Of a DNA stretch of 64,000 nucleotides, positions 11,217 through 15,526 are shown in pieces. Numbering within the stretch: the stretch's first letter is position 1; each line of letters starts with the position of its first letter. Origin of the DNA: Fidelibacterota bacterium (GTDB lineage: Bacteria > Fidelibacterota > Fidelibacteria > Fidelibacterales > Fidelibacteraceae); assembly GCA_030156395.1 (NCBI GenBank), contig JASGMP010000002.1, positions 1 through 64,000 of the forward strand, read 5' to 3'. The position numbers were made by a program, and so were the translations under genes. The notes beneath the pieces are model-generated. The model had not been told where the DNA came from, did not search any database, and saw nothing but the letters and a program-made list of their open reading frames with translations.

Positions 11217-11708
11217 TTATTTTTGGTAACTGTTATCCCCGAAAGAAATCACCTGGATATGAACTTTTGCCGTCCCCATGTTTTCAAAACCCAGAGCTTT
11301 TGCCGCCCCATAGGATAAATCCAGTATCCGTCCTTCCACATAAGGTCCGCGATCGTTTATCTTTACAACAACAGAGCGGTTGTTCTCAAGATTCGTCACC
11401 CGGATCAGGGTTCCCAAAGGCAGGGTTCTATGAGCCGCTGTCAAGGCATGCATATCAAAAATTTCCCCGCTCGCTGTCTTTTTCCCATGAAATTCTTCGC
11501 CATACCAGGAACTGAAGCCAATCCAACTTCGCTGATAGCTTAATTCCGGGTTTTTTTCCACAGGAATCTGTCTGGTGGGCTGAGTCCTTACAGGTTTTCG
11601 GGTTTTCTCCGGAACCGCCTGATTGCCATATCGTGGCGCGGAACTGCATCCTGACATAAAAACTAACATCAGAAAAAAGATAAGAGTCCTATTCCTGCAT
11701 CGATTCAT
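11217..11708 (-). CDS. RlpA-like lipoprotein (double-psi beta-barrel)
   Basis: 163 residues. A lipoprotein signal ends in FMSGC with Cys21. Residues about 60-160 are the RlpA domain: SSWYGEEFHGKKTASGEIFDM, AAHRTLPLGTLIRVTNLEN, VVVKINDRGPYVEGRILDLS and the closing AAKALGF-MGTAKVHIQV. In Pseudomonas, RlpA is a septal lytic transglycosylase acting on peptidoglycan lacking stem peptides; related proteins may only bind glycan. There is no SPOR domain, so this is the short form. The start lies 20 bases inside the upstream TPR lipoprotein gene, suggesting an operon of envelope proteins. Confidence 0.88.
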   Translation of the reverse strand: MNRCRNRTLIFFLMLVFMSGCSSAPRYGNQAVPEKTRKPVRTQPTRQIPVEKNPELSYQRSWIGFSSWYGEEFHGKKTASGEIFDMHALTAAHRTLPLGTLIRVTNLENNRSVVVKINDRGPYVEGRILDLSYGAAKALGFENMGTAKVHIQVISFGDNSYQK

Positions 11709-13530
11709 GTGCCTCTTCCCTTTGTAAGCTATCCGTTCCTATCTCATCCATCATCGTCTCCAACCCATGGATAGAATCCACTTCCGTCGCTCCACGTGTA
11801 TCTTCAGCCGATGTTTCCATCAGTTTTTCAATTATTTGGTTCAATTCCTTGATCCGTTTTTCCGCTGCGCCGGCATATTTGGTGGAAGCAAACTGGTTTT
11901 TAACCTGATGATAATAGAACATGGCACTGTCCAAATCTGAAAAAGTCCGGTCATATTCCAGGCCAATCCGGTACATTACTTGTGCCTGGCTCACAGAATC
12001 CAGTGATGCTGTATCCAGAAGTGATTTGAGTGCATTCACCCCCTCCTTTTTCCGATCTTGATTAAAGTAGGTTTCTTCGATTTTAAAAATTAAAAATTGG
12101 TTTTTTTCCCGTCTCAGAGAATCAGGATGTTCCCTACCCAGATATTGAAGACTTAAGGGAGAATAAGGATATTCTCGGATCAGACGGTTTTTCAACATCT
12201 CCGATCTGAGTGTATCGCCCGTTTCTTTCAGCAGATAACTCCACGTATTCAAAATCTGGGGAGTCATGGGATTCCCTTTGAAACGGGTTGTCAATCTCTG
12301 ATAAATCCCGAGAGCTGAATCTGGATTCTGAAAATTAAAAGCCAGAAACTCCGCCTGTCGAAATTTGTTTTTTACATAATCATTGATCACTTTATCTGTC
12401 AGGGATGTATCCTGTTCAACTTCAGGATTTATCAAACTTGGATATTCTTCCTCCAGTTTTCGGATTTCATGATTCAATGAGACAAATTGTCCAATTTCAT
12501 TGATCTTTCCCTGGGCCAGGGTTGCTTCAAGACAGTTCCTATCATGTTGCCTAACCGCTACAAAGGCATTTCGGGCACTTTCGTAGTCATTCAGCTGATT
12601 TAAATAGATCTCCCCAAGTTGATAGGATGCTTTTGCCGCCTGAGGTGTGTTAGGGTAATTTTCGATCACGGTTTTATAGCGTTGAATCGCCTGATCCATT
12701 TTATCCTGCTGGGAATACACCTTGGCCAATTCCAGCTCCAGATCGGGAAAAACCGTTTGATTTTCTTCATTTGCCAACATCTCTTTGATCAATTCTTCAC
12801 TTTCCTCGTACATTTCCCGAATTCGGTAAATCTTGGCATACTGAAGCTGAACCCGGGTCAACATCAAAGGATCTATCGAAATTTCTTCTATTTCTTGTAA
12901 GACAGCCAGGGCTTTCTCCAACATGGACCGGTCAATGTAAATTTGAGACAATTCAAAGAGCAAATTACTTTTAGATTGGATATCCTGGGACATATTCACA
13001 GCTTGGTTGAAATATTCAAAGGCTTTTTCATCTTCACCCTCTTCCAGAGCCAGATATCCGGCAAGAGACATAGCCTCGCCGAAAAAAGCCTTATTTTTTG
13101 AATCAGCGATAAACTCTTCAAGCATCCGAAAGGCAATATCCTTTTTGCCCAGTTCATAGTAACATCGTGCAATCCACAAATGAGATTCATTATAATAGGG
13201 GCTTGAGGGGAATTCTATCGTCAAACGTGAAAACATAGTCCGGGCAATGGTATATTTCTGAAGATGAAAGTTGGATACACCTGCAATGTACATGGCATCA
13301 TCCACATAATCGGAATCCGGAAAGCGTTCGATGACTTTCTGCGCTTTGAGTGATGCATTTTCAAATGTGGAATAAGTTGCACGGGATATCTTGCCGTCTT
13401 TGTTCAGGTCCTCCTCCATTTGGCGCATCGCCTCGGAAAAATACGTTTTGGCATTGTAAAATGTATTGAAATAGGCACATCCACTCAGAATCACCAAGAA
13501 AAAACTTAATTTAAGGCAAAAGAGACGCAT
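11689..13530 (-). CDS. TPR-repeat outer-membrane lipoprotein
   Basis: 613 residues. The signal MRLFCLKLSFFLVILSGC places the lipid-modified Cys at 18, followed by AYFNTFYNAKTYF, an opening I associate with TPR lipoproteins of FCB-group bacteria. The rest is almost entirely helical with many tetratricopeptide-like units (for example DDAMYIAGVSNFHLQKYTIARTMF and QAAKASYQLGEIYLNQLNDYESA), similar in style to BamD/YbgF proteins that hold outer-membrane or Tol-Pal complexes. Specific function unknown. It is nine bases from the next gene upstream and overlaps the RlpA-like gene by 20 bases, in a four-gene minus-strand envelope cluster. Confidence 0.78.
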   Translation of the reverse strand: MRLFCLKLSFFLVILSGCAYFNTFYNAKTYFSEAMRQMEEDLNKDGKISRATYSTFENASLKAQKVIERFPDSDYVDDAMYIAGVSNFHLQKYTIARTMFSRLTIEFPSSPYYNESHLWIARCYYELGKKDIAFRMLEEFIADSKNKAFFGEAMSLAGYLALEEGEDEKAFEYFNQAVNMSQDIQSKSNLLFELSQIYIDRSMLEKALAVLQEIEEISIDPLMLTRVQLQYAKIYRIREMYEESEELIKEMLANEENQTVFPDLELELAKVYSQQDKMDQAIQRYKTVIENYPNTPQAAKASYQLGEIYLNQLNDYESARNAFVAVRQHDRNCLEATLAQGKINEIGQFVSLNHEIRKLEEEYPSLINPEVEQDTSLTDKVINDYVKNKFRQAEFLAFNFQNPDSALGIYQRLTTRFKGNPMTPQILNTWSYLLKETGDTLRSEMLKNRLIREYPYSPLSLQYLGREHPDSLRREKNQFLIFKIEETYFNQDRKKEGVNALKSLLDTASLDSVSQAQVMYRIGLEYDRTFSDLDSAMFYYHQVKNQFASTKYAGAAEKRIKELNQIIEKLMETSAEDTRGATEVDSIHGLETMMDEIGTDSLQREEAHESMQE

Positions 13531-13539
13531 AGTAATCCT

Positions 13540-14460
13540 TTATTTGTTAATAGAAAATTTTCCGTTAATCATCATGTACCTCACATGTGCCTGTTTTATC
13601 AGGGGATTCCCGTTGAGGAAGAGGATATGTGGAGAATATGAATCTCTGGAGTGACTGTTGGTGATATGATCCAGTATTCGGATTCCTGCGGTAGCTTCCA
13701 GCTGATGAAGTGTCTTGAATACATGATCAGGATCTTTATATGCCACCTGCAAAGAATCATACTCTTGAAGTAATTCCACTTCATGAAGGACTCTGATCAT
13801 GGGTGTAACACTTGTATCTGCATCATATTCATGGTAATCTATTTTCAGAAGATATCTTTGCCCCATTGAATCCTCTGTTATGCAAAAAAGGGGGATTAGC
13901 TGGTTTTTCCACTGATACAATCTTTCTCTTTCACGGGTCGACCTGGAATGCTCTACGGCATTCACTCCGGATTTGTAAAGTGAATCTGTGCTATTCTCCT
14001 GAAAAATCATAAGTCCTTTTAAAGAGAAAGTTCCCGGGTAGACCAATTGCAACACATCTCCTGAACGGATACCCGGGCCATCAGGATAAAGAATAAAGGA
14101 TATAATTCCCTTCTTCAGCATCGACTGGTATATTTCCCGCAATTGCCAGCGGGGTAAGCCGGTTTGCACATAGGGATAGCTACTGTACGAACTGTCCAGA
14201 ACCCTGGGAACCCAGAAATTTTCCAGAGCTGGAATCATCCAGAAGCGGCTCATATCCAGGTACCCGGATTTTTTTTCAAAGGAAGAAACGGAAAATGTTT
14301 TGCCTGATGTAACAGCCCACATTTCTCCCGGGGCACTCCATTGACCTCCACCTTTGTAAACATGGCCACAGCGAATGTAAAGGGTGTCGTTATTTTCGGC
14401 CTGGATCAAAACACCTGGCACGATAAGCAGCAGAATTGCACACATATATTTACCGAACAT
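13540..14460 (-). CDS. Exported amidohydrolase-like protein lacking metal ligands (second of pair)
   Basis: 306 residues from the ATG at 14460, which overlaps the upstream gene's stop by 11 bases and has AAGGTG upstream; a longer frame to 14562 would overlap 113 bases and is rejected. Residues 1-21 (MFGKYMCAILLLIVPGVLIQA) are a signal peptide. Early text DTLYIRCGHVYKGGG and MSRFWMIPALENFWVP resembles the composite beta-sandwich and the entry to the barrel of imidazolonepropionase-type amidohydrolases, and the C-terminus ends in a sandwich-like MMINGKFSI. The HxH motif expected after the PA(L/M) turn is absent, so catalysis of the usual kind is unlikely. Function unknown; fold assignment is inference. 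Confidence 0.55.
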   Translation of the reverse strand: MFGKYMCAILLLIVPGVLIQAENNDTLYIRCGHVYKGGGQWSAPGEMWAVTSGKTFSVSSFEKKSGYLDMSRFWMIPALENFWVPRVLDSSYSSYPYVQTGLPRWQLREIYQSMLKKGIISFILYPDGPGIRSGDVLQLVYPGTFSLKGLMIFQENSTDSLYKSGVNAVEHSRSTRERERLYQWKNQLIPLFCITEDSMGQRYLLKIDYHEYDADTSVTPMIRVLHEVELLQEYDSLQVAYKDPDHVFKTLHQLEATAGIRILDHITNSHSRDSYSPHILFLNGNPLIKQAHVRYMMINGKFSINK

Positions 14461-15388
14461 AAACACCTTCAATAACCAAGTGTTCACAAGGCCCTCCGCT
14501 CTCTTTAAAAACTGCAAAGGAGGCAGAATATCCCGGAACCAGGAGGCCAAAACGAAGATCAATTCCCAGAAACTCAGCGGGAAGGACTGTCGTCAGCTGG
14601 AGAAAAACTTCCCGGGAAAGCCGGTTCGCTTGCAAGATGGAATCGGACATCCCGTAAAACCAGGACATTGGAAACCGGAGACCCATATTTCCCAATGTTT
14701 CGAACCAATCCGATTCAGTCGGTTTCCCTTTTTCATAGGTTTTAAGGTCTTCATAATTGAGAATCAGGCGTGTATTTTCAAAAATCATGTCGCGTTGCAG
14801 GCTTTTTTCCCGAACAACCCATACAGATTCCCAGTTAGTTTCCTGAATAAGTGCCTGAAATTCCGGTATCCACATACCAGGAATTTCATCCCACCAGATT
14901 TTGTTGGGGCCCAGGAATTGAAAAGGCAAGGTCAAATGGCTGGAATCCTCCGATGGAATCGACAGGTAATCGTGAATTTGCTGATACAAGGCATGAATCT
15001 TGCCATCTTCGTTGGGGATTAAAACACGCAGTCCCAGGGTATCCGGTTCCTGAAGGTTTTGGACAGTCCTTAGCAAAATATAGGGGTTTTCTTCCGTCAG
15101 ATAGAGTCCCGCCCCCCTGTGAATCATCAGCGAATCTACAAGACTGCGATCCCGGCCGGAGTAAAAATTCAAATCAATCATAGCCGGTATGATATGGAGG
15201 GTTGAATCAATAGCATCGATGGGAACCCGCCGGAGAGAAATAATCCGATTTCCGGCATAAGCCAATTCACCGGGAAAAATATCCCCGTTTCCCCGGTGAA
15301 TCCATCCACTGATGTGATCCCGAGGAAGAGCTAAGAGGCATGCTGAAAAATACATCACAAGGCAACCGGTTCGAAAGGTCAATTTCAT
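14450..15388 (-). CDS. Exported amidohydrolase-like protein lacking metal ligands (first of pair)
   Basis: 312 residues with a signal peptide ending near residue 20 (YFSACLLALP). The sequence STLHIIPAMIDLNFY occupies the place of the VLPGLIDxHxH entry in amidohydrolases, but Asn/Phe/Tyr stand where His-x-His should be. The C-terminus (LGIDLRFGLLVPGYSASFAVF, then VIEGVYVR) closely follows the amidohydrolase ending G-x-I-x-x-GxxADxxVxD-V-xGxxV. It therefore looks like a periplasmic relative that lost the metal centre. It is translationally coupled to the second copy (overlap of 11 bases). Signal peptide, fold motif and adjacency are seen; loss of activity is inferred. Confidence 0.6.
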   Translation of the reverse strand: MKLTFRTGCLVMYFSACLLALPRDHISGWIHRGNGDIFPGELAYAGNRIISLRRVPIDAIDSTLHIIPAMIDLNFYSGRDRSLVDSLMIHRGAGLYLTEENPYILLRTVQNLQEPDTLGLRVLIPNEDGKIHALYQQIHDYLSIPSEDSSHLTLPFQFLGPNKIWWDEIPGMWIPEFQALIQETNWESVWVVREKSLQRDMIFENTRLILNYEDLKTYEKGKPTESDWFETLGNMGLRFPMSWFYGMSDSILQANRLSREVFLQLTTVLPAEFLGIDLRFGLLVPGYSASFAVFKESGGPCEHLVIEGVYVR

Positions 15389-15467: not shown

Positions 15468-15499
15468 TAAAAAAAAAGCTCTCCGACGGGCGGACAGCT
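15468..15499 (-). terminator. Rho-independent terminator of the ffh-rplS operon
   Basis: On the minus strand a hairpin AGCTGTCCG-CCCGT-CGGAGAGCT (one G:G mismatch) is followed by nine T (complement of the A run at 15468-15476). It lies 28 bases after the rplS stop. Confidence 0.88.
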
Positions 15500-15526
15500 T
15501 TTTCATGATTTATTTCGAGAAAAGGA

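Follow-up and report, generated by a model that had tools for sequence, protein, structure and literature searches.

Tandem exported, probably non-catalytic amidohydrolase descendants encoded with an SprE/PorW-like lipoprotein in Marinimicrobia

The window, i.e., the whole stretch of 64,000 nucleotides analysed here, carries on its minus strand two adjacent genes, hereafter A and B, followed by the genes of a TPR lipoprotein and of an RlpA-family lipoprotein (Table 1). Both members of the tandem pair described in an earlier note on this DNA are present as open reading frames, each with a hydrophobic, signal-like N terminus. Genes A and B overlap by 11 bp, a gap of 9 bp separates B from the TPR lipoprotein gene, and the TPR and RlpA genes overlap by 20 bp. 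On the upstream side, gene A is separated from rplS by a strong same-strand stem-loop followed by a U run (-16.1 kcal/mol, z -4.4), and A-B-TPR-RlpA therefore reads as a single operon; the shared transcription proposed in the earlier note is in line with both the gene spacing and this terminator, which is missing from a simple terminator scan permitting no internal mismatch. The start of gene B is best placed at the ATG at 14460, in the minus-strand context GAAGGTGTTT-ATG with GAAGG upstream, and is preferred over a longer mechanical open reading frame from the TTG at 14562, judged unlikely. For gene A, assignment as a lipoprotein was considered and rejected, the signal-peptide Cys that its window copy exhibits not being kept in all congeners; B is not assigned as a lipoprotein either.

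Table 1. Coordinates of the A-B-TPR-RlpA operon and of its upstream boundary in the window.
Feature	Position	Strand	Remarks
Gene A, exported pseudo-amidohydrolase, 312 aa	14450..15388	-	entry motif PAMIDLNFY replaces PGxxDxHxH
Amidohydrolase-type composite-domain half at the C-terminus of gene A (coordinates of the whole gene)	14450..15388	-	LPAEFLGIDLRFGLLVPGYSASFAVF
Gene B, exported pseudo-amidohydrolase, 306 aa	13540..14460	-	entry IPALENFWVP, ending HILFLNGNPL...MMINGKF
TPR lipoprotein, SprE/PorW-family homologue	11689..13530	-	lipobox Cys18, CAYFNTFYNAK opening
RlpA-family (double-psi beta-barrel) lipoprotein, final operon gene	11217..11708	-	
Intrinsic terminator between rplS and gene A, upstream operon boundary	15470..15504	-	stem-loop and U run

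Proteins A and B present the same order of features as members of the amidohydrolase superfamily (PF01979/PF07969; e.g., the solved structure 3ooq, 396 aa, annotated as "amidohydrolase"), namely short N-terminal strands, an entry of the PGxxDxHxH type, a core and an ending of the type PAxxLGxxxxxGxxxxGxxADxxxFxxxP...VxxxG, from which they differ by the presence of a signal peptide and by the absence of HxH and of any recognised beta5 His, beta6 His or beta8 Asp. The place of PGxxDxHxH in active relatives is occupied by "IPAMIDLNFY" in A and "MIPALENFWVP" in B. Active relatives within the phylum exhibit PGFIDNHSHIG at this place and carry, further on, the His motifs SHVHSAHD and LHHS as well as the motif FHTDD. 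At the position of the HxH pair, A reads D-L-N-F-Y, where N and Y replace the two His, and B reads E-N-F-W; the D-L-N of the A entry is invariant, another genus included. The loss of the His pair reported in the earlier note is thus confirmed, with N-x-Y in A and nothing comparable in B. Considering the columns of A aligned to HxH, the beta5 His, the beta6 His and the beta8 Asp, no ligand occurs at any of them, i.e., no hidden metal site is found there, and no metal motif is recognisable in B, in which the ligand positions of strands 5, 6 and 8 cannot be aligned with certainty. As for the C-terminal end, the ending LVPGYSASFAVF...VIEGVYV previously attributed to both proteins belongs to A only, B exhibiting instead a degraded form of ADLVxxxGxPL...VxVxG (Table 1).

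The stretch from the entry to the exit motif spans 196 residues in A and 178 in B against 255-284 in full-length relatives, i.e., it is about 60-105 residues shorter, and the barrel is therefore probably incomplete in both proteins. Structure prediction, a check proposed in the earlier note, was run with AlphaFold2 from alignments of only 8 and 6 rows and gave mean pLDDT values of 39.6 and 43.4 for the two proteins, too low for a fold search, so that a complete TIM barrel is neither supported nor refuted by the models.

In the first instance, the likeness to amidohydrolases could be viewed as fortuitous, A and B then being unrelated small exported proteins. Neither protein exceeds any Pfam cut-off, the Pfam amidohydrolase models matching only the C-terminal part of A below the cut-off and B giving no match in direct Pfam and NCBIfam scans; direct comparisons of A with B and of B with A5 are not significant, and the B profile finds only chance matches in the PDB. 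Against chance stand significant profile matches for both proteins. With A, an eight-row profile matches 3ooq over its C-terminal part in a profile search of the PDB (E 2e-9), and its alignment to a profile built from full-length exported amidohydrolases extends over 307 columns (probability 94.8, E 5e-8). With B, the match is to a profile of B-position homologues from related families (268 columns, probability 96.9, E 1.3e-10), and these intermediates of 333-411 aa close the gap, as they are clear to marginal Pfam amidohydrolases, some of them full-length, one matching 3ooq at E 1.6e-28. A coincidental likeness is most improbable. Since A matches amidohydrolase profiles and B aligns only with the B-position amidohydrolase homologues, these alignments indicate descent from amidohydrolases directly for A and through intermediates only for B, in agreement with the derivation suggested in the earlier note. 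Of note, a plasmid collection searched as a source of distant relatives yielded six ordinary-looking amidohydrolase matches, which were uninformative, and the literature search returned nothing on TM0814 under that name and nothing relevant on amidohydrolase pseudo-enzymes.

Each of the six genomes of the genus carries genes A and B along with the TPR and RlpA genes in an unchanged order, B being present in all six and A as five full-length copies plus one contig-end fragment. Within the genus, identity goes down to about 52% for A and 37% for B with no internal stops. The dN/dS ratios (Nei-Gojobori) are, where computable, 0.14-0.27 for A and 0.21-0.27 for B (0.18-0.27 for both when set against the nearer congeners), compared with 0.06-0.11 for TrmD, RlpA and the TPR protein, the more distant comparisons being near or at synonymous saturation. 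As such, A and B are functional genes under purifying selection, with a weaker constraint than their neighbours. Their faster evolution (about two to four times that of the neighbour genes), their shortened lengths and the absence of the pair in genus g2 could all be expected of decaying pseudogenes, but this is very unlikely when confronted with their retention without internal stops in the six genomes at such divergence, with the translational coupling inside the operon and above all with dN/dS values well below 1, which by themselves already largely refute it. Somewhat less improbable, though still not to be favoured, is the retention of a different, metal-independent enzymatic activity in a shortened barrel, for which both the purifying selection and a set of invariant polar residues (H65, D72, N74, D85, S86, D227 and E260 in A, many in B) could be invoked. 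These sets are drawn from only 8 and 6 sequences, however, and differ between A and B; except for the D preceding HxH, no kept residue coincides with a known ligand position of amidohydrolases, and full-length relatives have a clearly longer barrel region. On balance, it is quite likely that both proteins are amidohydrolase descendants without catalytic activity, a view shared by the two functional readings considered below.

Regarding the third gene of the operon, its CAYFNTFYNA opening hardly varies among the families sampled and the gene is present in 235 of 245 genomes, a count that may include, among its weakest matches, false ones due to TPR repeats. In the window genome, the TPR lipoprotein is the best match of the PorW/SprE profile (84.8 bits vs 43.2 for the next protein), and the PorW/SprE model matches 12 out of 12 TPR members scanned in the phylum (best E 4e-51), although TPR repeats inflate such matches. 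At 100.4 bits, the window protein remains below the curated cut-off of 250 bits of NCBIfam NF052312, which none of 26 genomes exceeds. When the phylum TPR profile is compared with the PDB, only designed consensus TPR proteins outscore SprE, and its positions 59-591 align with residues 91-749 of the solved SprE (8gl8_I) in a single collinear match (E 1.2e-26). Taken together, the lipobox Cys18, the SprE-collinear TPR scaffold and the presence of SprA in the genome assign the TPR partner, at the sequence level, to the SprE/PorW-like proteins, a point going beyond the earlier note. In genus g2, which has no pair, the SprE-like protein at locus L062 opens with NISAYFNTYYNA and exhibits a longer N terminus without the lipobox Cys, and that at locus L063 likewise gives no match to the Cys motif, as if the lipid anchor had been lost.

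The window genome encodes SprA (SprA_N; whole-genome match at G000:C119:11540-12847) as well as 43 Por_Secre_tail domains. Of 21 sampled Marinimicrobia genomes, 20 contain SprA and all 21 contain Por_Secre_tail proteins, and type IX secretion therefore appears phylum-wide in Marinimicrobia, a subject on which the literature searched offered nothing beyond one passing mention. In Flavobacterium, SprE, SkpA and PorD are components of the Extended Translocon (PMC10994853), and in Porphyromonas, PorW connects Sov to the PorK/N ring (PMC8754138); PorD and SkpA are partner proteins of SprE/PorW, which is known to be bound by other periplasmic proteins (PMC10994853; PMC8754138). The window operon resembles this system in associating A and B with an SprE-like TPR lipoprotein, and differs from it in that PMC10994853 mentions no amidohydrolase-like protein.

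Conservation of the pair beside TPR lipoproteins with the CAYFNTFYNAK opening, which the earlier note proposed to check, was found in part of the phylum (f and g numbers being anonymous family and genus labels). Related pairs lacking HxH, another addition to the earlier note, lie by the same TPR gene in three other families, namely (i) f8, with 393 and 411 aa and the entries PGLVDLHTSV and PGFILANTTLG, followed by CobB-TPR-PyrK-PyrD-RlpA, (ii) f4, with 305 and 333 aa, immediately before TPR, and (iii) f2, with at least 135 and 339 aa, followed by CobB-TPR-RlpA. In genus g3, which belongs to the same family as the window, a B homologue precedes TPR-RlpA and the A homologue is located at another site, next to a patatin-like gene. 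The TPR neighbourhoods of 22 other sampled families, and those of the same-family genus g2, contain no such pair, a few of these contigs extending only a short way on the side concerned. Of 244 genomes, 7 give a strong match (over 100 bits) to the profile of the B-position gene, and each of the 7 belongs to one of these families but not to the genus of the window; a 129-aa open reading frame upstream of the TPR gene at locus L129, with E 5e-4 to the g3 B homologue, was judged a chance match. On the TPR-protein tree, the label "pair" needs three changes, which is compatible with, without proving, an old origin of the pair followed by losses.

Domains without HxH, e.g., PGFIAATSTLG, PGLIDAMTYYG or the N-terminal half of the 1000-aa protein, also occur in other tandem exported amidohydrolases of the phylum, with sizes of about 1000 and 440 aa or 400 and 424 aa. 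Like the window pair, these proteins are tandem and exported, with one or more members or domains devoid of HxH, but in the cases read HxH is still present in one domain or more per cluster (PGLIDCHSHT, PGFIDNHSHIG) and the clusters do not lie beside the TPR gene, whereas the window pair has no HxH domain at all and is much shorter. The tandem exported amidohydrolase clusters of the phylum already exhibit this tendency, of which the window pair represents the extreme. At loci L114, L115, L116 and L119, the exported amidohydrolase of about 1000 aa combines an HxH-less N-terminal domain with an HxH-bearing C-terminal domain and adjoins an HxH-less partner of 440 aa.

Considering function, A and B would be two exported, periplasmic, non-catalytic descendants of tandem secreted amidohydrolases. 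The binuclear metal site is gone and the barrel region is reduced by about a quarter to a third, with the N- and C-terminal halves of the composite domain kept, and the two proteins are encoded in one operon with RlpA and an SprE/PorW-like outer-membrane TPR lipoprotein. Their most likely role would be to bind other proteins or ligands on the side of the outer membrane facing the periplasm, where the two proteins, perhaps as a heterodimer, may help the SprE-like lipoprotein by contacting either the lipoprotein or its cargo; they would probably constitute a lineage-specific accessory to this lipoprotein within the type IX translocon. Of the proposal in the earlier note, i.e., periplasmic binding or scaffold proteins derived from enzymes, the enzyme descent and the export stand, and the binding or scaffold part is reasonable but unproven. 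A pseudo-enzyme pair tied to the SprE-like type IX lipoprotein is the reading retained here, tentatively and at somewhat less than even chances, with the type IX role deduced from operon position and conserved gene linkage. The more specific proposition, namely that paired pseudo-amidohydrolases were recruited in Marinimicrobia as periplasmic type IX accessory subunits binding the SprE-like lipoprotein, is rather doubtful.

The main competing view keeps A and B as non-catalytic amidohydrolase derivatives but gives them a function unrelated to the SprE-like lipoprotein, e.g., a soluble periplasmic pair binding peptides or cell-wall fragments and merely sharing an operon with this lipoprotein and RlpA. 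It is itself a serious but uncertain candidate, close in likelihood to the tie with the SprE-like lipoprotein and favoured by the patchy occurrence of the pair, which most of the phylum lacks, the TPR gene being nearly universal there. Because of this absence beside the TPR gene in 22 families and genus g2, the pair is not a core type IX component; and because the pair and TPR are separated by a CobB-type sirtuin gene in f8 and f2, the adjacency may reflect ordinary operon shuffling. The cytoplasmic and unrelated CobB, PyrK and PyrD share the same cluster elsewhere, which favours the competing view. The unlinked A homologue in g3, the faster evolution of A and B relative to their neighbours and the score of the TPR protein below the PorW cut-off also speak against a tie with the SprE-like lipoprotein. 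In favour of such a tie, on the contrary, the TPR gene has stayed linked to the pair, or to B, in four families, over which the TPR protein is only about 25-43% identical to that of the window.

A single locus offers a graded series, from near-full-length HxH-less pairs (393 and 411 aa) to stripped-down ones (312 and 306 aa), and thereby a good case of conversion from enzyme to binding protein; should the link to the SprE-like lipoprotein be functional, A and B would be new candidate type IX parts outside Bacteroidota. The cluster of CobB-type sirtuin, SprE-like TPR, PyrK, PyrD and RlpA genes, from which CobB, PyrK and PyrD are missing in the genus of the window, recurs phylum-wide with all five genes or most of them (L066, L068, L073, L111 and others).
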